DNA of 64,000 bases from Lepidurus packardi (lineage: Eukaryota; Arthropoda; Branchiopoda; Notostraca; Triopsidae), in NCBI GenBank assembly GCA_023053545.1, contig JAKZAN010000001.1, positions 10,002,565-10,066,564 on the forward strand. Direction: 5' to 3'. The position numbers and the translations under genes are program-made. This document shows, in pieces, positions 13,797 through 35,918 of the stretch. The stretch's first letter is position 1. Each line of letters opens with the position of its first letter. Under the pieces are notes generated by a model that was not told where the DNA came from, ran no database searches, and was given only the letters and a program-made list of their open reading frames with translations.

Positions 13797-14981
13797 ATGG
13801 ATGGCCGCACACAAGCTAAACCAGTCGTGGTTGCTTCTGCCCTTGTTGAACCGAATCCGGCTTCCGAAGTGTTACTTGGTCAACTCATGGTGGCCCTCAA
13901 CCCTCTTGTTGGAAGCCAGTATCTGGGAGAAATACCTAATTTTACTGGCAAGGACGATACGCAAACGATCTCCGAATGGCTAGCTTTATTTAACCAGGTC
14001 GCCTTGTGCGCGAAGTGGGACGTGGACACTCGTTTTAACTTGATAGCCCTCCGGCTAAAAGAAGTGGCTGGTGAGTTCTATACCAACTGGAGGAAAACAA
14101 ACCGTAACAAAGTGTATGACGATTTCGTAAAGGATTTAAAAGAAAGATTTGGGGATACGACAGCCAAGGCCAGGAATGAAGCTCTTTTCAACGATTGCCG
14201 CCAGGAGCCGGGTCAAACAGTGCGTGATTTTGCTCAGCAATTAACCGTGTTAGCTCGAAGAGCTTACGAAGATCAGGCCACTAGCGATGATGCACGAGTT
14301 TTCCTAAGCCACATTAAATTGCAAAAGTTCATAAGAGGGTTAAGCTCACGGATTCAGCGTCTTGTTATCTCTGCGGAACCAACTACTTTCGATGACGCAG
14401 TTCGAATCGCGGTCAAAGAAGAAACAAATGAGATGCTTGTGCGTAAAGCTTCCGCTGAAGTTGGTCAAATTCGAAGTGAACAGTTAACGGGGGATCAGCC
14501 ACACGGCAGCAATGGAAACCGCGACACAGGACCCCATTCCCCCATTCGTGATATCCGCCTGGAAGACAAAATTGACGCGTTAAGTCAGCAGGTGGCTCGC
14601 ATACAGATGACGTCAAATTCACGTGACCGTCGTGACTCTATCGATGATTACCGGCCAACAGCTCGCGGATACCGTAAATCCGAAGAACGTTATAGCGGAT
14701 CCACTTCTCGTGAACGACAGGGATACAGCCCGTATAGACGCGGCCCATCGGCAAGGTCCACATCGAGAGAACGGTATAGGAATTCGCGTCGAGTTCAGTT
14801 TGCGGATATAACGTGCTATAACTGCAACCGGAAGGGACACATTGCAAGGGAATGCAGACTGTCGAACGGCGGGAATCCACAATTTGGCCGTCCAGAGTTT
14901 CCAATTGGTGCAGGTAGATGCTATAACTGCGGAAATTTAGGACATCGCGCCGCTGAATGCAGAGGGCGTCGTTTAAACTGA
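13797..14981 (+). CDS. Gypsy-2 gag
   Basis: Uninterrupted 394-codon frame from the first ATG after the primer site. The capsid-like part (about residues 45-210) has IPNFTGKDDTQTISEWLALF and FGDTTAKARNEALFNDCRQ, the usual gypsy gag pattern of a folded helical core ending in a QxxG/VRDFAQQL block. A basic, Arg/Ser-rich region (about residues 260-340) follows, then two CCHC zinc knuckles: CYNCNRKGHIARECR (about residue 340) and CYNCGNLGHRAAECR (about 374). It overlaps the pol frame by 25 bases, so pol would be made by a -1 shift. It appears intact even though pol is not. Confidence 0.9.
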   Translation: MDGRTQAKPVVVASALVEPNPASEVLLGQLMVALNPLVGSQYLGEIPNFTGKDDTQTISEWLALFNQVALCAKWDVDTRFNLIALRLKEVAGEFYTNWRKTNRNKVYDDFVKDLKERFGDTTAKARNEALFNDCRQEPGQTVRDFAQQLTVLARRAYEDQATSDDARVFLSHIKLQKFIRGLSSRIQRLVISAEPTTFDDAVRIAVKEETNEMLVRKASAEVGQIRSEQLTGDQPHGSNGNRDTGPHSPIRDIRLEDKIDALSQQVARIQMTSNSRDRRDSIDDYRPTARGYRKSEERYSGSTSRERQGYSPYRRGPSARSTSRERYRNSRRVQFADITCYNCNRKGHIARECRLSNGGNPQFGRPEFPIGAGRCYNCGNLGHRAAECRGRRLN

Positions 14982-21262: not shown

Positions 21263-24200
21263 ATGGAAACCCACCATAGCACTAGTAAGAAATTAAAGAA
21301 GTCTGGCCATGAGAACAGACTAGCAAAGGCCAGACGTGAAAAGGATGAAAGAAAGCTTTCAGAGACAATGCTAACATTTCTTAGGTAAGTGATACGAAAG
21401 GTGTTTATTCTTTCGGAGTTTCCTATGTTTATCTGAATGTTTTTATAAATTCGGAAAGTACAGAGCCATGAGCTGCCGCTTTTTCTAGTTTGGTACTGTT
21501 ATGTTATACCCCCCCCCCCCCCGCCCTGGATTCCTAGTTTTCCCATCTTAACCTAACCAAACCTAACCTAACTAAAACTAACCTAACTTAACCTAACGAA
21601 AAATAAAATTTTATCTTATTTTAAGAAAAATTTAACGCATTAAACCCCGGGGTGCCTGTGCAAACCATAGGCAAATCAATTTAAAAACTAGGCCAGTTTG
21701 GTTAGGTCTAGTTAGGTTAGGTTAGTCAGGTTAAGTTAAGACTAGAATATGTTCAGGAATTTTTACTTGTCATTTTGGTGAAGTTTTCACATTTTAAGAG
21801 CGATTAGGAAACGAAAAAATCGAGGGGGGGGTATAACATAAAAGTACCGCTTTTTTATGGTGTAGTTAATATTACTGTTATTATCTTCGCAATACTTCCA
21901 GGAAAGAACCAACTTCGACAGTCGTGTCTACAATTTGTTCAGATGCTGTACACAATAATACTGTCTGTCACGAAAGTTCGCTTACGGTTGAAAAGAGTCC
22001 AGAACTAGAGACTACGATCGCGTGTTCAGATATCCCGATGGCGGATGAAAGTGCAGATCTTGACGGAAGTCATTCAGTATCTTTATCGGAGACTTCAGAA
22101 ATCTGCTTTGCGACAACACCAACAAGCTCACAAAGTACAGAAGCTGCTTCTGTAAATTTAACTAAGACATGTGTAGAAAATGCTGCGTTAGTACGTTCCG
22201 TCGCATTTAAAACTCCAACAACGACAGAATCTTCTAGAGCACAGCTCGACATTGGAAGTTTGCAACGTGAGAAGCTGACCGATGCCGAGAAACTACTCAT
22301 TCTTGAAAGAGGAGATATTCCTCTCCGTCATAATCTTCCGACAAGAGACTGTGGTAAGAAGAAGAGGAAGTTCAACCCCGATTTCTTGTCGACGTACAAA
22401 TGGTTACGGTACTCAAATATGCTGGATGGCTGTTTCTGCGTTGCGTGTTTTTTATTCAGTTCGACACAAGGCGTGTTTGTGACATCACCTTTTACTGATT
22501 GGTCCAACACTAGCGCAGTTATGCAAAAACATCAGGAAAGCGTCGATCATTCTAAAGCTGCCCAAAGTTGTATCTCGTTCACTGCCATAACTTCGGGCAA
22601 GCAACAAACTGTATGTCAGAGCATTTCAAGTGCTTTTCAAGAAACCATTGCACGAAACCGACACTTCCTTGGTGAAATCGAGAAGGTCATTATCTTGTGT
22701 GGAAAGCAAAATATTCCTTTACGTGGGCACATACCAGAAACGAGCAATTTTCATTCCATATTGCACCTTCTTCGCGAGCACGATCCAATTTTGGACAACT
22801 TTCTGAAAACCTCGCCCAGAAATGCTCAATACATCAGCCCGAAAATCCAGAATGAATTTATTCAGTTGATTGGGCAGCAGATCCAGCGCAGCATTTTAGC
22901 TGAGGTTCGTGAGGCCAAATGGTTTGGGCTCATTGCGGACGAGACTCCAGATGTTTCCCGTATCGAACAAGTGTCGCTATCTGTTCGTTACCTCACGGCA
23001 AGTTCACAGGTAAAAGAGATGTTTCTAGAATTCATTCAAAGTGAAGATACTCGTGGAGTCTCTTTGGCCAACCAATTTCTTCAAAGAATTTCGGCCTGGA
23101 ATTTGGATAAGAAGAATTTGAGGGCTCAAGCGTACGACAAGGGTGCCAATATGAGTGGAAAATTCAAAGGAGTGCAGGCAGCGATTCGGAAAGAATTGCC
23201 AGAAGCAGTTTACTGTGCTTGTCTGGCTCATGGTCTGAATACTGCAATTGTCCATTCTTGTGGTATAGCCAGTGTTTCAAACCTGTTAACCAAGGCGAAT
23301 GAGGCCATCAGAATGACAAAGTCCTCTGCCAAGCGGCACAACATCTATAAAGAAGAACTGAAGAAATTGTCAAATTTTATTCCTGATGATGACAATACCC
23401 TCGAAATACCATTGGCATGCGACACACGGTGGATTAGCCAGGCTGGTTGCCTTCAATCCCTGAAGGACAAGTTTGTCATCGTGGTGTCTGCACTGGAAGC
23501 AATATCAGATTTTGACGGGAAAGCAACGAGTGTACTGCATTCAATTCTTCAGTTCGACTTTATAGTACCCCTATTTCTTGTAGAGGACGTTCTGGGTTAC
23601 ACTGTGAATCTGCACAAGACCCTTCAAAAAGTAAACGTGGATTTGGTAAATGCCGTAGACGACGCGGAAGCTGTTGTCCGTTGTTTGGAAGATATTCGCA
23701 ACGAGGATTATTTCAGCTCGCTGTACATAAGCGCAAAGAAACTGGCAGCAGACGTCGATGTGGAGGAGAAAGTTCCTCGGATCACTAAACGGCAAATACA
23801 CAGAGCAAATGCCGATTCCATGGATCCCAGGCAGCACTATTATCGGAACCTTTTCCTACCTTTCGTGGACAACATGATTGTCGAGCTGAAAGAGCAGCTG
23901 ATACAGCCAAAGCCGCGTTTCCTTGCACAGTACCTTATACCTAGTCGTCTATCAAAGTGTTCTCGAGATTTAGAAAAAGACATATTTGCTGCCTTCACTT
24001 CAGATTGCGTTTATGATGAAAAGGAAATGAAGATCTGGAGATCGAAATGAAGCTCAACATCTGACCGTGAGAAACCAGCATCAGTATGCGAAACACTTGC
24101 TGTGATGTCAAGAGATACATTCCCGAACATCTACACTGCTCTCTCAATTTTTGCAACAATGCCCGTGTCCGTAGCCACTGCTGAACGTTCTTTCAGTACT

Positions 24201-24362
24201 CTGAAAAGACTGAAAACATGGCTGCGTAACACGATGGGTGAAAGTCGTTTGACAGGACTTGCATTGATGCATTTGCACAGGGACGTTAACATTGACATAG
24301 AGCAAGTACTGCGTGACTTTGATCCTTTGAATGACCGCCGGATCCTCCTTGCCTTAAACTAA
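21263..24362 (+). pseudogene. hAT-2 transposase (TTF zinc finger, DUF4371, hATC), one frameshift
   Basis: Exon 1 is 21263-21384 (METHHSTSKKLKKSGHENRL, basic). The intron 21385-21901 has GTAAGT and CTTCCAG and joins in phase to exon 2 from 21902. The TTF-type zinc finger is at about 22390-22560 (CFCVACFLFS...HQESVDHSKAAQS). DUF4371/RNase-H-like core: AKWFGLIADETPDVSRIEQVS carries the first catalytic Asp (about 22920-22980), CACLAHGLNT lies near 23215, and FATMPVSVATAERSFSTLKRL in the hATC domain at about 24147-24209. A single missing base near 24048 creates a stop (IWRSK then TGA) and puts the hATC exon in another frame. Apart from that break the gene looks complete, with stop at 24360-24362. 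Confidence 0.88.
21489..21853. repeat. MITE-like palindromic element in the hAT-2 intron
   Basis: GGTACTGTTATGTTATACC plus a C-run (about 21491-21523) is mirrored by a G-run plus GGTATAACATAAAAGTACC (about 21824-21850). Inside are CCTAA-rich (21542-21598) and the complementary TTAGG-rich (21694-21738) tracts, so the whole can fold into a long hairpin. No ORF. Confidence 0.7.
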
Positions 24363-25308: not shown

Positions 25309-25314
25309 GTAAGT
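25309..25314 (+). promoter_or_regulatory. Candidate leader splice donor of Gypsy-3
   Basis: GAATC/GTAAGT sits 25 bases before the gag ATG, downstream of the primer site. With acceptors ending at 30296 and 31299 it would allow spliced messages for the zinc-finger and env-like ORFs, as in retroviruses. Splicing is inferred from consensus only. Confidence 0.5.
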
Positions 25315-25333: not shown

Positions 25334-26419
25334 ATGACCGCTGTAGGATCAACGTCCACAGTTCCCTTATCAATAACCCTAGAACAACTAAATGAAATCC
25401 TATCTCCATTACTTAACTCTACGATGATGCACACAATCCCTGATTTTACAGGGGAATCCGACGATGCATCAGTAAGACGATTTTACCAAGATTTAGAACG
25501 CATTGGTAGTACAATAGGATGGTCCGAACCACACCTACACAAAGTAGCCGTAATTAAATTAAAAGGAGGCGCCGGTGCCTATTACAATACTATTTCTCCC
25601 CGCCCAACAACTTACAAAGAATTCAAAACAGCTCTCTCCGAACGCTACGGTGACAGTCACCACGAATCACAAGCTATAGTCAAACTCCAGAATTGCAATC
25701 AAGAGGCAAAACAACCAGTTCGTGACTTTGCAGACAAGATTCGTTCACTCACAAGACGAGTCCACGAAAACGATAGCCCCCCAGCTGGGAACGAAATATT
25801 AGACAAAATCATGCGCCTAAATTTTATCAGAGGACTGCTTCCTTATTTAAAACGCTACGTTCTAAGCGCCAATCCAACGAACCTTCGCGAAGCTATAGAA
25901 GTTGCAGCTCGAGAAGAAGCTAACGAAGCAGCAGTTCCCCACAATGTTAGTCTTCAGAATGAAATCGAAGTTGTTACAGCAGTTGTTGCTGCGCTTACTA
26001 CTAACGAACCTTCGTTCAGTCGCAGGAGCAGAAGCACTACCTCGAATAGACCTCCCAACACCTACTCTTACGATCGAAACAGCTCGGGATATAGATCCCC
26101 GAACCCATATAGATCCCAAAATTCATACAATCCCTCAAACCCGTATCGCGATACATCTCGCAGCGGCGATAGACAAGTCCGTTTCTCGGACCAGTTCTCA
26201 CGAAATACGAACAGATTCCAGTCCCCAGGCAGGAACAACTTCAACCCTAGAAACCCCACCTTCCAACCACGCCCTAACTTTCAACCACGGTTCCCCCCAG
26301 GCCACCATACTGATAGGCCACAAGGCATGTCACGACCCCGAAATCCCAACATTGAACGTTGGTCATGTCGTAGACGAGGACACATAGCAGCTAACTGCCG
26401 AACGAACCAATCAAACTAG
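25334..26419 (+). CDS. Gypsy-3 gag
   Basis: 361 codons, uninterrupted. The capsid-like core has IPDFTGESDDASVRRFYQDL, LHKVAVIKLKGGAGAYY, ERYGDSHHESQAIVKLQNCNQ and FIRGLLPYLKRYVLSANP (about residues 35-195). The C-terminal third is Asn/Arg/Ser/Pro-rich and basic. It ends in a single zinc knuckle WSCRRRGHIAANCR, in which the first Cys of the expected CxxC is Trp-Ser-Cys shifted, so metal binding in this copy is doubtful. Related in motif layout to the Gypsy-2 gag but clearly different. ATG chosen because it is the first after the leader and starts the conserved region. Confidence 0.88.
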   Translation: MTAVGSTSTVPLSITLEQLNEILSPLLNSTMMHTIPDFTGESDDASVRRFYQDLERIGSTIGWSEPHLHKVAVIKLKGGAGAYYNTISPRPTTYKEFKTALSERYGDSHHESQAIVKLQNCNQEAKQPVRDFADKIRSLTRRVHENDSPPAGNEILDKIMRLNFIRGLLPYLKRYVLSANPTNLREAIEVAAREEANEAAVPHNVSLQNEIEVVTAVVAALTTNEPSFSRRSRSTTSNRPPNTYSYDRNSSGYRSPNPYRSQNSYNPSNPYRDTSRSGDRQVRFSDQFSRNTNRFQSPGRNNFNPRNPTFQPRPNFQPRFPPGHHTDRPQGMSRPRNPNIERWSCRRRGHIAANCRTNQSN

Positions 26420-29400
26420 AGGTGCTGACTGTGGCCCAACGAAAAGGTCAGTTGGCACCAGGTAGGAGAAGAAAAAACCTTTTTAAGAGACCTCCCGGTA
26501 GAATTTTTGCAAAAGTTATTATAGGATCAATCCCATTTAGATGTTTAGTTGACACAGGTTGACACAGGTTTCAGGCGTTACAGTTATGAATAAGCAAGCG
26601 TTTAATTTGCTGACACCGGACATTGCAGGAAAGCCAGTTCAAACTGATACAATCTTGAAATCAGTAACAGGAGATAACCTGAATGTCTTCGGTTGTTATG
26701 AATTACCTTCTGAAATTCAAGGCCGTAAATTCAAAGTTGAATGTTACGTAGCAGAAGAGTTAGCTTACGACATCATCCTCGGTATGGATGCGATTCAGAG
26801 CCAGAGCATAGTTATTGACGGCGCGTAAATGGAAATAAGCATGCAGAAAGAGATTAATGTGGTAGGCCTTGCAAGGAACAGTTCCAGAGTGCAACTGCAT
26901 AAGCAAGTGAAAATACCCGAATACAGTAGAGTCATTGCTACTGCCAAATCCGAGCACGATAACTCGCATGGAGCGGAAATTATTTTTGAGCCTGTTCAGC
27001 TAGACGACGAATTCGTTTGTAGCGAACCAGCAATCGTAATAGGAAAGGGATGCGGTAAAATCCCAGTCTCGTTTTGGAATAATGGTCCTAACGATGTTGT
27101 GTTGAAACGAAACACACTTATAGGAAGAGTTTGTAACGCCAGAGTGTCCGTGATTGCAGCAGTGCACTCACGTCCAAGTACAGAGTATCCGTTACTCGAG
27201 AACTTCGATCTGTCTAATGTTACCCCTTCGCACAGGGATGAGCTATTAAAATTATTAATTGAATTTCGGGATATTTTTGCAAAAGATGATAACGATTTAG
27301 GCCGTACAAAACTTGTTAAACATACCATTCACACCAGAGGTTCCAATCCTATCTACCAGCGTCCGTACAGAGCGCCAGAAGCACAAAAAAACAGTTATTA
27401 GACAGCATGTGGACGAAATGTTACATAGAGATATCATTAGACCTTCTTCCTCTCCTTGGGGAGCACCAGTAGTTTTAGTTAAAAAGAAAGATGGTACACA
27501 AAGGTTTTGCGTAGATTTTCGTAAAATTAATGCAGTTACAAGGAGAGATGTGTACCCTTTACCACGAATCGACGATACCTTGGATAAGTTAGGCAAAGCA
27601 CGTTATTTTTCAGTTATGGACTTAGCATCAGGATATTGGCAAGTCGAGGTAGCAGAGGAAGATAAGTACAAGACAGCATTTACGACAAATTTTGGTCATT
27701 ACGAGTTTAATTGTTTACCTTTTGGGTTATCTAATGCCCCAGCAACTTTTCAAAGGCTAATGGATAAAATTCTCGCCGCCGAGAATAGACTTGAGAACGT
27801 GTTAGTATACTTAGACGACATTATAGTTTTTTCCAAAACGTTCCCTGAACACATTGTTCACCTCCGCGAAATTTTTTCTAGACTACGAGCCGCAAGCTTA
27901 AAACTAAAAGCCAAGAAATGTAATTTTTGCAAACCTTTAGTTAAATATCTAGGTCACATTGTCTCCGCTGAAGGAGTTCAACCTGACCCAGCAAAAGATT
28001 TCAGCCGTTAAAAACTACCCGACACCAAGATCCGTAAAGGAAAATCGTTCCTTCCTAGGCTTAGCAGGATACTACAGGCGATTTATCAAAGACTACTCGC
28101 GTATAGCAAGACCCTTGAATAAACTAAGAAACACATAAAATTTAACTGGACAGACAAAGAACATTCAGCTTTTACCACTTTTTTAGCTTACCCAGATTTT
28201 TCAATACCATTCATACTTTACACAGATGCTTGTGACACAGGACTAGGCGCTGTGTTAAGCCAAACTCATAACGGCCAAGAAAAAGTTATTGCTTACGCTA
28301 GCAAAACTCTAAGTGATACCGAATCACGTTACGCTACGGTCGAAAGAGAAGCTTTAGCGATTATATTTGCAGTTAAACATTTTCATCCTTATCTATACGG
28401 CAGACATTTTAAAGTAGTTACAGACCACAACCCATTAAAATGGCTCATGAACAACAAAGACAGCTCTTCTAAATTGGCAAGATGGTCACTTAAACTTCAA
28501 GATTACGATATGGAAATCAAATACCGTCCCGGTGTTAAACACGGCAATGCCGACTGTCTATCCCGAATTCCTGTCGATGCAATATCAAACAGTGATACGT
28601 TGTATACCGCCACCTTGCACGAACTTCAGTTAGAAGACCCCTTTTGTTCAGCTATCGTATACTATTTAGAAAACAGAGAATTACAGGATAATAGCCCTAA
28701 GCATCCAGCATGGCTCTATTCACTAGAAAAATTTATTTTAGACGAAAACGGGTTACTCCTACACCTCCTTCAAATTAAAAAGTCACAAGAAATTACAGAA
28801 CAAATAGTAGCTCCCGAGGCTATCAGGAAGGAGATAATGGTGTCCCTGCATGATCACAAACTGTCAGGACATTTAGCTTTCCAAAAGACACACGAAAAAG
28901 TTAGACAGCGTTTTTATTGGCCTAGAATGTATTCTGAAATTAAACAATACTGCAAATCCTGTGAATCCTGTGCAAGACACAAGGATACTATTCGCACAGC
29001 GCCAGCCCCTATGGTTCCTTTAGAACCGGTTTCGGCGCCTATGGAACGTATTGCCATAGACGTTGTAGGCCCCTTACCACAGACCTACAGAGGTAACAAG
29101 TATATAGTTGTCTTTACAGATTATTACACCAAATGGCCAGAAGCATTTGCGATACCCGATCAGAAAGCAGACACTATAGCTAGACTTTTTGTGGAAGAAA
29201 TCATAGCTCGCCATGGTGCACCCCGTATTCTACTCTCAGATAGAGGCACTAATTTCATGTCCCAGCTAGTGGCAGAAATCTGCAAACTTCTTGAAATCAA
29301 ACAGGTTCGCACAACTGCGTACCATCCGCAGACAGATGGGTTGACAGAAAGGTTCAATAAAACTTTAATTTCCTTATTGAAACATTATGTTGAAAAATCA

Positions 29401-30263
29401 CAACAGGATTGGGATTCGCACATCCCATACGTTCTGTTCGCATACAGAACATCGCTACAATCTTAAAGTTTAGAATCCCCATTTTTCCTCCTTTACGGTA
29501 GGGACCCTACCCTACCAATCGACACGCTAATGACACAACCTCGGAAGAGTTATGCATTAGCGGTAGATTACAAAGCAGAAATGTTAGCACGCCTCACTTC
29601 AGCATGGGAAGTAGCCGGTAGAAATCTTCAAATAGCAACAGAAAATCAAAAACATTATTACGATCAGAATTCAAAAGAAGTAGCATACACTTGGTCAAAA
29701 GGTCTTTTTAAATAATCCAATGACAAAACCTGGATTAGCTAGGAAACTAGATTTAAAATGGCTAGGTCCCTTCAGAATCATCGAGTTTACATCTCCAGTA
29801 AATGTTCGAATTAGAGACACAAAAACTTTAAAAACAGAAATCGTCCACGTAAACAGACTAAAAACTTGCCGCGACACTAGCCCGTGGTCTTCAGAACCCC
29901 CACCCCCACTCTATACTTCCCCTACCCCTGTGTTACATGAAACCCACCCCCCCCCCCCCTTCCCCCCCAAGACAACTTTCTATAATTCCGCGAAAACCAA
30001 CCCCGGTACTAGTAACGCCACCTCAAGTGATCGTTCCACCAATACCTTTAGTAATTTCAAACCCAACAGTGCCGCCCGCAACTTCACCCGTACCCCCACT
30101 TCCACCCGTACCCAGAGCCGTTACTAGAGCTCAAAATGCCGGCACAGCACGAGCATCAACGTCACAACCTTCACAAGCATTAACTCCCCTTCAGGGAAAT
30201 GTTCTAAGACCAGTAACTTTAAGAGATCGGTCAACTCTTCGCCCCCCGGCGAAGTATACTTAA
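26420..30263 (+). pseudogene. Gypsy-3 pol (protease, RT, RNase H, integrase), many breaks
   Basis: The protease Asp region at about 26545-26570 carries a tandem 10-bp duplication (TTGACACAGG twice) that shifts the frame exactly at DTG. A TAA at 26826 follows. The RT spans two frames with a slip in an A-run near 27386-27392 and shows PSSSPWGAPVVLV, FSVMDLASGYWQVEV and VYLDDIIVFS (about 27805). A stop at 28009 and a deletion remove the RT/RNase H linker. RNase H: LYTDACDTGLGAVL (about 28215), SDTESRYATVEREALA. The integrase has the HHCC finger, AIDVVGPLPQ, LSDRGTNFMS and HPQTDGLTERFNKT (D, D, E intact), then a TAA at 29464, another slip near 29712, and a GPF-like end. The Pro-rich tail finishes at 30263. 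The domain order is that of a vertebrate-retrovirus-like Gypsy. Confidence 0.9.
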
Positions 30264-30309: not shown

Positions 30310-30933
30310 ATGGTTCTTATTACATTTCTTACATGTTATTATACTACCATAGAATATAAAATCCCCCCCCCCCATACCGTCTACATCTGCCCCTACGCTT
30401 GCGGAGATAGCTTCATGCTAGCGGAGGCGACAGAACACCTCGCTGAGTGCCGCAAAACCAACGAGGATTCGTTGGTAGGTACGGGACTGCACGTCTGTGG
30501 GTTCGATGCGGCTCATCACATCCCGACGGAGGCGTACATGCGCCACATACTGGACGACTGCCCGTACGAAAACGCTCTCATGCATTATGAGAGCGTTCAA
30601 AACCTGGGACACGACCACCCGGACGTGCACCCGCCACCTAAACCAACCGCTTTTAATACGCTCCCGTACAAAAACAGCGTAATCCTTCTGGAAGGGTTCG
30701 ATCGGCAAGTACTCCCGGACCACGGACTACCAAGACCCGACCACTTCGGTTTGCCAAACGACCTGGGCGTCCTCATGTTCACCCCCCAAACTATCGGCAC
30801 GGAGGTAGGTCACCAGACCAAAGTTGCACACCTCGAACCAAAACAGGCGCACAGCCATCTCACTCAACCCACCCCACCCAATTCAGTACAGGAAGACCAA
30901 ATTCACCTGCCCATATTGTGGAAACGATATTAA
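30310..30933 (+). CDS. Gypsy-3 accessory ORF A: paired CHHC (GTSF1-like) zinc fingers
   Basis: 207 codons between pol and env. The second finger fits the CHHC spacing of U11-48K/TRM13/GTSF1 fingers closely: C63-x5-H69-x9-H79-x4-C84 (HVCGFDAAHHIPTEAYMRH). The first has CPYACGDSF...EHLAECRK: C27, C31, H43, C47, with the usual first His replaced by Asp (position 33) and an extra Cys at 31. Two such fingers in tandem separated by about 15 residues is the architecture of GTSF1/Asterix, an RNA-binding cofactor of PIWI proteins. After the fingers the protein is Pro-rich with TLPYKNSVILLEGFD. ATG at 30310 is the first in frame; residues 1-24 are not conserved with ORF B. The 3' end overlaps ORF B by 110 bases. 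The role in the element is unknown. Confidence 0.7.
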   Translation: MVLITFLTCYYTTIEYKIPPPHTVYICPYACGDSFMLAEATEHLAECRKTNEDSLVGTGLHVCGFDAAHHIPTEAYMRHILDDCPYENALMHYESVQNLGHDHPDVHPPPKPTAFNTLPYKNSVILLEGFDRQVLPDHGLPRPDHFGLPNDLGVLMFTPQTIGTEVGHQTKVAHLEPKQAHSHLTQPTPPNSVQEDQIHLPILWKRY

Positions 30934-31240
30934 TACCAGGGACACGATAGGACACCTGGAGGAATGCCGTAACGAACACCCCGACCTCCAGGACACATTC
31001 CTACCATGCCCACACTCGAAGCTGCACCACATTCACCGGTCTGACGCCTTCGCACACGCAACATTCTTTTGTCGGTTCCGTTATGCTGGCCTCTACAGAG
31101 CCAAACCTTTTGTTCCCCCGCCGGCCATATTTGTTAGCAATTTATTAGAGTACCAAACCCTCCCTTATACCGCCCCCCCCCCCTTTGCAGTCGCAACCCT
31201 AGCCCTAATACCCCCTTCAGCGAAATCGCAAAATTCATAG
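30824..31240 (+). CDS. Gypsy-3 accessory ORF B: second pair of CHHC (GTSF1-like) fingers
   Basis: 138 codons in the +1 frame relative to ORF A. Finger 1: C29-x2-C32-x11-H44-x3-C48 (FTCPYCGNDINTRDTIGHLE), again with Asp (position 35) where GTSF1-type fingers have His. Finger 2: C62-x5-H68-x9-H78-x4-C83 (CPHSKLHHIHRSDAFAH). The spacing x4 before the last Cys and the Asp substitution are shared with ORF A, and both are followed by a TLPY motif, so A and B look like a tandem duplication. Homology begins at about residue 18. The frame change near 30870-30890 lies in a CCACCCCACCC run, so A and B may once have been one four-finger protein. Stop TAG at 31238-31240. Confidence 0.65.
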   Translation: MHTSNQNRRTAISLNPPHPIQYRKTKFTCPYCGNDINTRDTIGHLEECRNEHPDLQDTFLPCPHSKLHHIHRSDAFAHATFFCRFRYAGLYRAKPFVPPPAIFVSNLLEYQTLPYTAPPPFAVATLALIPPSAKSQNS

Positions 31241-31279: not shown

Positions 31280-31299
31280 TTTTTTTTTCTCAAATACAG
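31280..31299 (+). promoter_or_regulatory. Candidate splice acceptor directly at the env ATG
   Basis: A T-run followed by CTCAAATACAG ends at 31299; the env-like ATG begins at 31300. A pyrimidine tract plus CAG immediately at an env start is what spliced env messages of insect errantiviruses and retroviruses use. Confidence 0.5.
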
Positions 31300-32395
31300 A
31301 TGTTTCGAACACCATATTACGGCTTCTTCATCTTCTTCGTCAGCACTAGATTTTTGTCGACGACGCTAGCCATCGACATCACTATCTGCAACTGTAGCAA
31401 CCCGAAAACCTTAAATTTCATCAATCTTAACAACATGCCACAGTGTAACCCTAGAGAACGCGACCTACCACCTACTACAATGAACTACACCCTAACTAAA
31501 GATTTAGAAGCTTCAACAACCTTTAAAGGATACGCCTGCGGCCAATGGCAAAGACAACTAAAAATCGACTCGTTCTTCTTCCGAGGTCACGACACCATAA
31601 CGGATAAGCAACCAATGGACACCTCCACAGACGCGTGTTACCATCTGGTGCAAACGCTCACTTGCCATGGTAACAAGATGTACCGCGAAGGAAACAAATG
31701 GGTTTTTGACGAGCAGCCAAAAGGAGACCCAGTCTGGATGACTACGCAAACTTACACCACCGCAAGTTGCTTCATGGAAGAAATCACGCTTCACAAGCAA
31801 TGCCCAACCTGCTCAGTTGACACCCCTTTTGGTACCACAAATGCCTCATACGATGCCGGATCCGTAACATCAAACCACATCACAGTAGTATGGAAGCCTA
31901 CGGACATCGAAACAAAAACGAATACCTGTACCAACGTCACAATTGCCCTCGACATCGCCCTTTACTACTCTGCAACTACAAGCAAATACGGCAGGGTACA
32001 GGATAATAACAATCAACTTGAATTTTTTGTAGAAAAGACCCCTGTCTTAAACTGCGGAAAGTCCGGCGTACTACAAGTCGTTGGAATGCCGAAGCACTAC
32101 ATCCAGCTCTACCCCATCAGTACTATCCCCAGCCCAAAACCACAGACGGAACGGAATATTTCAGCCACCGAAGGACTAACAGGCCATCTCCAGTACATTC
32201 AAGATTCAGCAGTTTTCCACGAAAATCAATTGGCAAGGGAAATAGAAATTAATAACTGCATTTCCACACAAAATAGAGCAGCCCTGGTACCCTTAATCGC
32301 GCAGTTTAGTGGAATCCTCGCAGCACAGCTGCTCAGCTTTAATGATTGCGAAAGAATTCTGCCGTTCGGAGGGACCGCGCTGCTCCAGAAATGCA
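31300..32395 (+). pseudogene. Gypsy-3 env-like glycoprotein, C-terminus replaced by BEL sequence
   Basis: About 365 codons. The first 25 residues form a signal peptide (YGFFIFFVSTRFLSTTLA). The rest is Cys-rich with several N-glycosylation sequons (NCS, NYT, NAS, NVT, NIS) and no internal membrane segment. A helical stretch follows at about residues 300-350 (EIEINNCISTQNRAALVPLI). No transmembrane anchor is present because at about 32385-32410 the sequence becomes BEL pol. I read it as the ectodomain of a viral-type membrane fusion glycoprotein captured by the element. I cannot say from motifs whether it is of baculovirus, chuvirus/rhabdovirus or other origin. Position after pol and behind a splice acceptor fits env. 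Broken and cannot give an anchored protein. Confidence 0.7.
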
Positions 32396-34307
32396 CCGTA
32401 CTTAAACACCGTACTTGGTTGGGTAGCCCGTGGGGTTATTGGAACTCCACTAAGGCCGGCTCGAGCCCGGATCAATCTATTGATGGAAGAATCAGTCTCC
32501 ACCTTGGACCAAAAATTCGGTGTCTTCTGTAATACTGAATCCTTTGGCACGGAAAGTGTTGTACCCATGCGATCATGTCCAGAAGCCCAGAGAGCTAAAT
32601 GCATTGTTGACAACGGTACACGCAAACTGAAAATCGGATATGAAGCTCCCCTTCCATGGAAAGAAGGAGAACCTAATCTTCGCGATAATAACCCGTTAGC
32701 GGAACATCGTCTATGTGGGCTATTAAAGCGATTTCATAGTGACCCTAACTACGAAACTGACTATCGCAAGGCGATAGAAAAATATATCAGTCAGGGTTAT
32801 GCCAGGCTTATAACCAATCCATCCGACTTGACTAGACCCCAATACTTCTTGCCTCATCATGGAGTCTACAAGAAATCTTCTAAAGAAAAGAAGCTACGTG
32901 TGGTGTTCGATTCTGCGGCCCAATATCGGGGTAAGTGTTGAACGACGCGTTTAACCGGTCCAGTTTTGCAGAACGAATTACCCACCGTCTTAATCAAGTT
33001 TCGCGAAGGAGAAGTGGCATTTACCGCGGATATAACTGCAATATTCAGTCGCATTCGTTTACGGCCAGAAGATGCCTTTCTTTGGCCAGATAAGGATTCT
33101 GGTCGCACAAGTGTACCAAATGGAACGGGTTACCTTCGGAGATAAGTGTTCACCATTTGTAGCCATCAATACAATTCGAAGAACCGCGTCAGACTACGGT
33201 GAGGACAAGGAAAGTGCCGTTCCTGCAATTATAGAGAAGTTGTATGTTGATGACTACCTAGACAGCGACAAAGATGTATCCGAAGCATTCATCCGTCTAA
33301 AGGAAGTCCGGGAGATTCTTGGGAAAGGAGATTTCCACCTAAGCCAGTGGATATCAAATTCTCAGAAGCTCACGAAACTGATCACTTCAGAATTCTCCAT
33401 TGTCCATACATCATCCTCAGCGGACTTCAGCTGTACCTTTGGTGAGGACTACTCCGATACAAAGGTCCTCGGTATACGTTGGAAGCCAACCGCTGATGTT
33501 CTGACGTTCCAGGTCGTCAACTTGGAAAAGATCATATTCACCCGAAGAGGATTGTTAAGTAAACTGGCCGGTATCTTCGACCCGTTAGGGTTATTGTCTC
33601 GAATTACTGTCAAGGCCAAGATCAAGCATCGAGAGCTAGAGTTAAGGGGCCTAAACTGGGACAACCCAATTCCGGAAGAGCCAAACCGGTGGTGGCAAAA
33701 CTGGCTTGACCGACTGTTTGAGCTAGAGAACTTTCGAGTCTCCCGTTGTCTCCTTTATAACGAAAACCTTATTGAATATTCCGAATTGCACACACTTAGT
33801 GATGCATCACAAGAAGCTTTCGCCGCAGCAGTGTATCTCCGGAATGTGTACACAAACGGAGACGTTAAAGTTAGTCTTGTAATGGCAAAATCGAAACTGG
33901 CGCCAATTAAAACTATATCAGTTGCAAAGTTAGAATTGCAAGCCGCGTTACTTGGTGCTCGCTTAGTAAGTTATGTCCAATGCACTCTGACCCGGAGCGT
34001 ACGGCAGCGTTGGTTCTGGACCGACAGTTCTTGGGTCAGAAATTGGACAAGAGCCACAGCAGCGTTCTACAAACCCTTTGTAAGTCATCGGATTGGAGAA
34101 ATTCAAACCCTTACAAAATCAAATGATTGGCGTTTCGTACCGGGGCGTTTAAATAGTAGCGATTTGGCAACCCGTGCTATTTTGGAGTCAGATTCATTGA
34201 TCGACGAAACGTGGTGGACCGGCCCACCTTTCCTGATGCAAGTGGAAGACACCTGGCCGACTGATATTCCTTGGATACGCAATATGGAAGAGATTCGTAC
34301 AAGCTGC
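32396..34307 (+). pseudogene. BEL-3 fragment A: protease end, RT, RNase H
   Basis: Starts with LGWVARGVIG at the end of the DUF1758 region, then VSTLDQKFG, EKYISQGYARLI and YFLPHHGVYKKSS (RT N-terminus). Frame breaks near 32940-33070 scatter the DALTGP and FTADI motifs over frames. It resumes with MERVTFGDKCSPFVAI and LYVDDYLDS (about 33237-33263, catalytic DD intact). RNase H: LSDASQEAFAAAVYL (about 33796), VAKLELQAALLGARL, WFWTDSSWV and the NSSDLATRAI end (about 34150). At about 34308 (after MEEIRTS) it turns into Gypsy sequence. The BEL integrase continues at 36058. Non-functional. Confidence 0.85.
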
Positions 34308-35918
34308 GAATTCCAATCTCTTCACGCAAGTATCGAACCGGCTCAAGCGGTCGATTGGTCGACACTCACACCATCATCTGGTGACGAGCTGGGGGAAGGT
34401 ATGCCGGGTTTTTCCGCCAAATCAGCACTGGTCGGCTTAATAGATGTGAAGACTGCGACAGACGTCGCCAACATCGACCCAGTACTGGAGAAAATCAAAC
34501 AAGCCGCCACCTCTGACCCCGTACTCCAGAAACTCCGAAACCAGATCGTTACAGGTTTCCCTAACGATAAGTGCAACCTGGAGCTCGATCTCCGTCCTTA
34601 TTGGGGCGTCAGAGAACGCTTAGCCATCGATGAAGCTGACGAGATGATCGTGGTGGGTTCCAGGATCGTTGTCCCACACTCCATGCGCACCGAAATACTC
34701 GGTAAACTCGTCACAATGCACCAAGGAGCTACCAAAACGCGCCAGCGAGCCCGCGCCTCGGTATACTGGCCGAACATGGACAACGACATTGTCAACGCCA
34801 CAAGAAACTGCGAAACATGCACCAAACGCATGCCCTCGCTACCACCTGAACCATTAAAACAACGACCTCCTGCTACACGTCCGTTCGAACAGATCCACGC
34901 CGATCTCGGAACCGTGAAAGGTCGCGTGAAAGCAGCTGGCCTTAAGTTGTTGCATTTCCTGACACAAAGACCTCAGCCCGCCGAGTCATCGAACAGGTTC
35001 GCCTCTTCTTCTCAAACGTCGGCGCACCGGTCACTTTTTGGTCCGACAATGGACCCCAATTCGCAGCAACGGAATTCAGAAAATTCTTATCCGACTGGGG
35101 CGTTAACGCAGCGACATCTTCCCCTCACTACACCCAGTCAAACGGTCGAGCAGAAGCGGAAGTTAAAGCCATGAAATCACTCATCGAGGGGTCATGGACC
35201 TCCGGGGCTTTTGACCCAGACAAGTTCGCCAAAAGTATCCTGCTGTTCCGGAATGCGCCACGTTCCGGAGGAGCATCCCCTGCTCAAATCATCTTTAACA
35301 GACCCGTTCGCGATTGCATACCGGCACATCGCCGATCATTCGCCCCCGAGTGGCAAAAGACGGCAGACGTTCTCGAAAAAAGAGCCCGCCGCTCAAAGGA
35401 GCTACAAGTCGAGCACTATAACAAGAAAGTGCATCCGCTCCCTCCTTTCACCGTTGGAAACCACGTACTTATCCAACACCCCATTAGTAAGTTATGGGCA
35501 ACACCAGGAATCATAGTGGAAGTTGGCCCAAACCGCGACTATTGGGTAAAAACACCGGCCGGTCGCATCTTCCGTCGGAATCGCCTTTTCCTGCGCCGTC
35601 GCATTCCCACATTTGGAGGGCCCGAACCGATTCCAGTCCAGCAACCGACGCCTATCCTACAGGGACAGGATCCAGCCCTGCCGCGGCCAACGCCAGCCCA
35701 GAAGCAGCCAGATCCCGTGCAACCCTCAGCTCGCCGTTCAACGCGGCCCAGATGCCCAAGACGGATGCATTTCCCGAATGAGTGGGCTCAGTAACAAGTC
35801 CTTTTATCCGTACAATACTCGGAAATGAACTGTCATGTTGTCTTGGATCGTATCGCTTATATTTTACACGGTAAGAGCAAAAACGCACTTTGGCGTTTTT
35901 TGCTCGTTGAAAAGGGCG
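34308..35918 (+). pseudogene. Mag-like Gypsy 3' half: integrase and tail
   Basis: Inserted within BEL-3. It starts in the RNase H-integrase linker (IKQAATSDPVLQKLRNQIV, FPNDKCNLELDL.PYWGVRERL) and shows the HHCC finger (HQGATKTRQRARASVYWPNM, CETC). FEQIHADLGTV carries the first Asp of the core. Then a frame break/deletion near 34910-34960; the second Asp (FWSDNGPQF) and the Glu region (QSNGRAEAEVK) lie in another frame at about 35035-35165. From 35171 an open frame (207 codons) covers the integrase C-terminus (FRNAPRSGGASPAQIIF, VGNHVLIQHP) and a Pro-rich end. The 5' half of the element is absent here. Confidence 0.85.

Follow-up and report, generated by a model that had tools for sequence, protein, structure and literature searches.

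A 64,000-nucleotide stretch of the genome of the notostracan Lepidurus packardi (contig JAKZAN010000001.1, positions 10,002,565 to 10,066,564; here called the window) contains a damaged Gypsy-type retroelement that carries, between pol and env, a gene for a relative of GTSF1, the tandem CHHC zinc-finger protein of the PIWI-interacting RNA (piRNA) pathway. The gene, GTSF1-like, was very probably captured and duplicated internally and serves as an accessory gene in an env-bearing family of Gypsy type that was active recently; its product would be a single four-finger protein of some 300 residues, arranged as two GTSF1-like units (A and B). A fuller reading, to which we give a probability of roughly 0.4, adds that the captured gene's product mimics host GTSF1 and thereby lowers piRNA-guided silencing. 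The identity of the gene, its position, its single frame in other copies, its constraint and the exchange of its halves were read from sequence, whereas the mimicry of GTSF1 and the interference with silencing are what we infer.

Relationship to GTSF1

A profile built from the two window units only had mouse GTSF1 as its top match among 177,635 PDB sequences (expectation value, E, 1.3e-7), and a seven-row profile of finger pairs recovered GTSF1 at E 1e-8; the best match of a reversed control profile had E 0.25. Taken singly, unit A (as a profile) matched GTSF1 at E 1.5e-4 and unit B (with phmmer) at E 0.0015, and U11-48K ranks second in the PDB profile searches. Comparison of the units with shuffled mouse GTSF1 gave z values of 10.0 to 13.7, none of 500 shuffles being equally good, and in the AlphaFold2 model of unit B, 73 of 76 residues align with the GTSF1 fold. 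A preliminary description of this DNA, made from the letters alone, had proposed GTSF1-like tandem fingers here, which is supported, and a structural superposition as a check, which agrees for unit B. Another check that it named, a hidden Markov model search with the CHHC family zf-U11-48K, returned no match (Pfam PF05253, E up to 10), an outcome that it had counted as a refutation; that model, however, is only 25 positions long, and kinship is supported by the profile and fold comparisons.

The units are GTSF1-like rather than GTSF1 in the strict sense, since finger 1 is C-C-H-C and not C-H-H-C (Table 1). In all units with a full set of ligands a second Cys replaces the first His, as the preliminary description had read from the window, whereas the Asp that it placed at the usual His is variable, other copies having Gly there. 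Its pattern for finger 2 of each unit holds without change. The TLPY motif that it noted behind both finger pairs is present in both window units, but unit A of other copies has KLPY. Units A and B are 28% identical with their ligands in register, which upholds its suggestion of a duplication.

Generic C2H2-like fingers that converged on the CHHC pattern, with no kinship to GTSF1, could account for the unmatched Pfam model, for the C-C-H-C finger 1 and for the weak scores, below cut-off, of Di19 and other zinc-finger families. Such convergence is nevertheless improbable, given that the order and spacing of two adjacent fingers agree with GTSF1 both in sequence and in fold, and that neither the reversed profile nor the shuffled sequences yield anything comparable.

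One gene with four fingers

The two open reading frames (ORFs) lie between pol and env, with the boundaries and lengths originally reported (Table 1), but they are not two genes. A search of the same assembly (108.6 Mb) found at least 25 matches to ORF1 and at least 17 to ORF2, counting short pieces and two remote matches, whereas a chance insertion, the alternative raised with the first description, had been expected to leave no such ORFs in other copies of the family. Four of these copies (L019, L020, L021 and L022) hold both units in one open frame of 293–306 codons with four fingers, flanked by the pol stop on one side and by an env frame of 638–744 codons on the other; the two-ORF appearance of the window is therefore damage to a single gene, and two separate genes are ruled out. 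The window copy has a frameshift between the units and is without the start codon present in six other copies, although an in-frame ATG exists further upstream. In L023, another copy whose env frame is long, finger 1 of unit B has been lost.

All eight ligands of unit A are retained in 13 of 22 distinct copies (16 of 25 in the tally by source, which counts three copies twice), the losses being confined to two relics (L032 and L033), two derivatives with one ligand changed (L035 and L036) and five truncated copies (L024–L028). For unit B the figure is 7 of 12, with losses in five damaged copies (L023, L027, L028, L029 and L034). The long terminal repeat (LTR) pairs of two inspected copies show 2 differences in 617 positions and none in 612, and these two copies were thus inserted recently. 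Another pair, in C46, runs for 828 bases without a difference, but its match reaches the edge of the sequence piece and it is not used as evidence.

Constraint and exchange of halves

Between the open copies L020 and L022, 43 of 95 changes are synonymous against an expectation of 21.2 (p 6e-7), and between L020 and the window 73 of 162 where 36.2 are expected (p 1e-10); two further pairs show an excess with p 8e-7 and 2.5e-5, all four tests being simple counts on pairs that are not independent. The ratio of non-synonymous to synonymous change (dN/dS), which the preliminary description had proposed to determine, is 0.32–0.58 for unit A and 0.15–0.29 for unit B in comparisons between allele groups. 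The excess of synonymous changes implies that the protein is constrained and, as far as such counts can tell, the four-finger protein is under purifying selection in the element family.

A captured fragment without function, carried along by chance, would suit the broken window copy, the truncated units of several copies and the short derivatives that hold unit A at the gag position with no in-frame ATG before finger 1 in the copies read. The selection result disfavours it (p 6e-7 for the two open copies), as do the retention of ligands in diverged alleles and the four copies that combine an open four-finger frame with a long env frame, two of them with nearly identical LTRs, and it is highly improbable.

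Divergence is concentrated in the gene itself. Between allele groups the CHHC gene differs by 11–18%, and pol and env by 1–5%: L020 and the window differ at 166 of 915 positions in the gene, 34 of 863 in pol and 32 of 933 in env, and L020 and L022 at 97 of 915, 8 of 865 and 10 of 933, respectively. L029 and the window, which belong to one allele group, show no such spike (2.7, 2.7 and 2.5%). Compared in 60-base steps, L020 and L022 have a common unit A (0–5% different) and are mostly 10–32% apart in unit B, whereas L020 and L027 have a common unit B (0–7%) and are 7–22% apart in unit A and 13–17% apart in the last stretch. A non-aligning pol stretch of L027 (difference 0.53) and an early pol stretch of L028 were left out, and the dN/dS rows from them, near 0.8–1.0, were not used. 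Local hypermutation as the source of the spike is not supported, as changes between L020 and the window run both ways (30 G>A and 32 A>G; 105 transitions to 61 transversions). The simplest reading of the mosaic is that halves of the gene have been swapped between old lineages by template switching between co-packaged element RNAs. Old alleles that persist in this way would fit a conflict with a variable host factor, without proving it.

Possible action of the protein

GTSF1 accelerates target cleavage by PIWI proteins, for which it must bind RNA as well as PIWI (PMC9385479), and in nuclear silencing it partners Piwi and Maelstrom (PMC13269885). The element may use its GTSF1-like copy to disturb host silencing. 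The finger pairs would bind a protein of the PIWI pathway, mimicking host GTSF1; with most of the RNA-binding charge lost, the four-finger protein would occupy the partners of GTSF1 without helping, and piRNA-guided silencing of the element would thereby be lowered. A more specific version is tentative: a retroelement-encoded GTSF1 mimic would act at the protein level against PIWI–piRNA silencing, its halves persisting as diverged alleles and being swapped as cassettes as host PIWI and GTSF proteins change.

Three observations weigh against mimicry under constraint. RNA binding by mouse GTSF1 needs R26, R29, K36 and K39 (PMC9385479), and the corresponding residues in the HMMER alignment are N, D, E and N in unit B of L020 and N, D, D and N in that of L022, where a Lys adjoins the third place; in unit A they are A, E, E and E in L020 and M, E, E and K in the window, with one Lys kept. 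The net charge of finger 1 in six element units is −3, −2, −2, −1, +2 and −3 (the +2, in unit B of L022, runs counter to the trend), while mouse GTSF1 has +5 and five host CHHC fingers range from +2 to +4; judged from these alignments, the RNA-binding charge of GTSF1 is mostly gone from the element units. The second observation is that the PIWI-binding Trp cluster of mouse GTSF1 has no counterpart behind the fingers: Trp occurs at positions 40 and 305 in one of two open proteins and at position 40 only in the other, although Phe and Tyr are present after the fingers. Finally, one close pair, L028 and the window, has a dN/dS of 1.00 in unit B, on 9 changes.

The same residues bear on a role as replication helper, in which the protein would bind element RNA, primer tRNA or Gag during packaging, export or reverse transcription. 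U11-48K and GTSF1 do bind RNA through CHHC fingers (PMC9539491, PMC9385479), and the gene is retained in open copies; set against this, the four basic RNA-binding residues are replaced, apart from the Lys in unit A of the window, and finger 1 is negatively charged in 5 of 6 units, unit B of L022 being the exception. This argues against the earlier suggestion that the protein binds tRNA or the element genome through the RNA-binding face of GTSF1. A further suggestion, that the fingers replace a degenerate gag knuckle, is contradicted by the gag of other copies: the knuckle C-x2-C-x4-H-x4-C is regular in two of three read (L055 and L056), Tyr replacing His in L057, and its degeneration in the window is therefore damage. 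A replication helper is, on balance, unlikely.

Loss of the basic residues would also fit a scaffold or modulator in some other host process, such as splicing, transcription, or ubiquitin or TRAF-like binding, with no role in the piRNA pathway. C. elegans GTSF-1, which is without the basic residues, operates in a different small-RNA pathway by contacting other proteins (PMC9539491), and TRAF, UBZ and Sgf11 fingers are among the lower-ranking fold matches of the unit B model; the closest matches in sequence and fold remain those to GTSF1, and a scaffold of this kind is possible if doubtful.

If the reading of the gene as a GTSF1 mimic is true, it would be a protein suppressor of piRNA silencing encoded by an animal LTR retroelement. 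A GTSF1 relative encoded by a retroelement is a direct and testable candidate for a counter-defence that animal retroelements mount at the protein level, and the swapped halves provide natural variants for testing against host PIWI proteins.

Origin of the gene and its derivatives

The units score 67–85 with mouse GTSF1 and 24–60 with seven host finger sequences, the scores of five of these being limited because each is a single finger; the host set comes from six-frame matches and may miss the true GTSF1 of the host. With the higher scores falling to the mouse protein, a donor among the host's own genes is not established. Searches of a protein set at E up to 1 found no relatives of the four-finger protein (463 candidates) or of the two-finger profile (1239 candidates), which says little about other species, and viral contigs held no relatives of the GTSF1-like protein.

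A sister Gypsy family in the same genome (36–37% alike in env and 38% in gag) has an open env frame that starts 55–60 bases past the pol frame. The GTSF1-like gene is absent from its copies L039 and L040, which are clean, and from L041 and L042, which have insertions elsewhere; the gene was thus gained in the GTSF1-carrying lineage or lost in the sister.

Short, non-autonomous derivatives (L030, L031 and L035–L038) consist of leader, unit A, protease and a truncated reverse transcriptase (RT), with unit A at the position of gag and, in those read, no in-frame ATG ahead of finger 1. L055 is a version of them with gag in the place of unit A, and in L024–L026 the RT is fused to unit A. A splicing origin of the join between leader and unit A was rejected, there being no acceptor-like AG at the join; the order of leader, unit A and protease fits a template switch better.

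Damaged single units also stand apart from the element, in L032 (1893–2084), L033 (1642–1884, reverse strand) and L065, 33–40% alike; the first two are without full ligands and the third has a stop. They may be old relics or remains of a host gene. A cuticle-protein gene (PF00379), which speaks for an arthropod genome, lies near one relic. One further match, C218, is borderline (E 0.68).

Comparison with known systems

CHHC fingers are known in eukaryotes from only three kinds of protein, U11-48K, TRM13 and GTSF1 with its paralogues (PMC9385479). The element protein resembles GTSF1/Asterix in the order and spacing of its fingers and in predicted fold, and differs in its four fingers, in the C-C-H-C finger 1, in having mostly lost the RNA-binding charge, in the absent Trp cluster and in being encoded by a retroelement. 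GTSF1 is small, at about 19 kDa (PMC9539491), and has a single finger pair close to its N-terminus, whereas the element protein, at 293–306 codons, has two pairs. Finger 2 of each unit shares C-x5-H-x9-H with the finger of U11-48K, whose solved domain has a single finger of this kind.

Among retroelements, the family is closest in plan to env-bearing, errantivirus-like Gypsy elements, with gag, pol, env, LTRs and an acceptor-like site immediately ahead of the env ATG, and departs from them in the extra gene between pol and env. Captures by LTR elements named in PMC12440569 are those of a chromodomain and of env. The Drosophila element TART-A, with its captured nxf2, likewise holds sequence of a piRNA-pathway gene, but its proposed action is through antisense piRNAs against nxf2 (PMC7785250), whereas the element here keeps an open, constrained protein frame. 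The matches listed in the literature, judged by title, included no retroelement coding for a GTSF1-like or CHHC gene, in a search that left subscription literature mostly outside; the words env, envelope and zinc finger are absent from the available text of a paper on LTR elements of Daphnia pulex (PMC2996953).

The element in the window and its surroundings

The damaged copy spans about 25.2 to 32.4 kb of the window (Table 1). With gag, RT–RNase H ahead of integrase, LTRs and env, the family belongs to Gypsy (Metaviridae) with env. No inverted or direct repeats of at least 60 bases occur in 18000–40000 of the window, so this copy yielded no LTR pair; a 107-base piece of its leader matches the C3 copy at 89.7%. 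A search of the window against Rfam gave no match, and PHROGs likewise returned none.

Table 1. Features of the damaged Gypsy element and its interruption, in window coordinates.
Feature	Position	Strand	Remarks
Donor-like site GTAAGT in leader, ahead of gag ATG	25309..25314	+	window only; consensus reading only
gag of Gypsy element	25334..26419	+	Retrotrans_gag E 1.7e-9; knuckle damaged in window copy
pol: protease, RT, RNase H, integrase	26559..30263	+	frames broken; RT_RNaseH, Integrase_H2C2 and rve in 28252-29466, remainder assigned by eye and by comparison with open copies
ORF1, unit A of GTSF1-like gene, broken copy	30310..30933	+	207 amino acids
Unit A finger 1, C-C-H-C	30388-30450	+	C-x3-C-x11-H-x3-C
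Unit A finger 2, C-H-H-C	30496-30561	+	C-x5-H-x9-H-x4-C
ORF2, unit B of GTSF1-like gene, broken copy	30824..31240	+	138 amino acids
Unit B finger 1, C-C-H-C	30908-30967	+	C-x2-C-x11-H-x3-C
Unit B finger 2, C-H-H-C	31007-31072	+	C-x5-H-x9-H-x4-C
env frame	31285..32400	+	ATG at 31300; 3' side removed by BEL/Pao element
Acceptor-like site CAAATACAG, immediately 5' of env ATG	31291..31299	+	consensus reading only
BEL/Pao element interrupting Gypsy env	32309-35794		Peptidase_A17 (Pao) in 33072-35174; integrase H2C2

The acceptor-like CAAATACAG also precedes the env ATG in all 7 other copies in which this ATG was found and, together with the donor-like site in the leader, is as expected for a putative spliced env message. 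No comparably clear acceptor-like site was seen for the CHHC frame, and the ATGs that lie upstream of it in another frame vary among copies; its translation by leaky scanning or from a message spliced at a weak acceptor would be a guess.

The window env matches that of an open copy at 94% over 371 residues. Errantiviruses proper have an Env related to the baculovirus F protein; the env here found no family in Pfam, and its profile no match in the PDB at E ≤1, and its relatives in public contigs (P0003, P0004 and P0005) are all remote. P0003 scores 20.9 bits with Rhabdo_glycop_FD, the fusion domain of rhabdovirus G, just below the cut-off of 22, and P0005 has a ricin-type lectin domain within its env-like protein.

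A second, distant Gypsy gag, 31% alike to the gag of the GTSF1-carrying element, lies at about 13869–14864 of the window. Two frames at 21924–24362 resemble what we take, by eye, to be a hAT-type transposase, and the sister copy L041 holds a long frame nearly identical to them.
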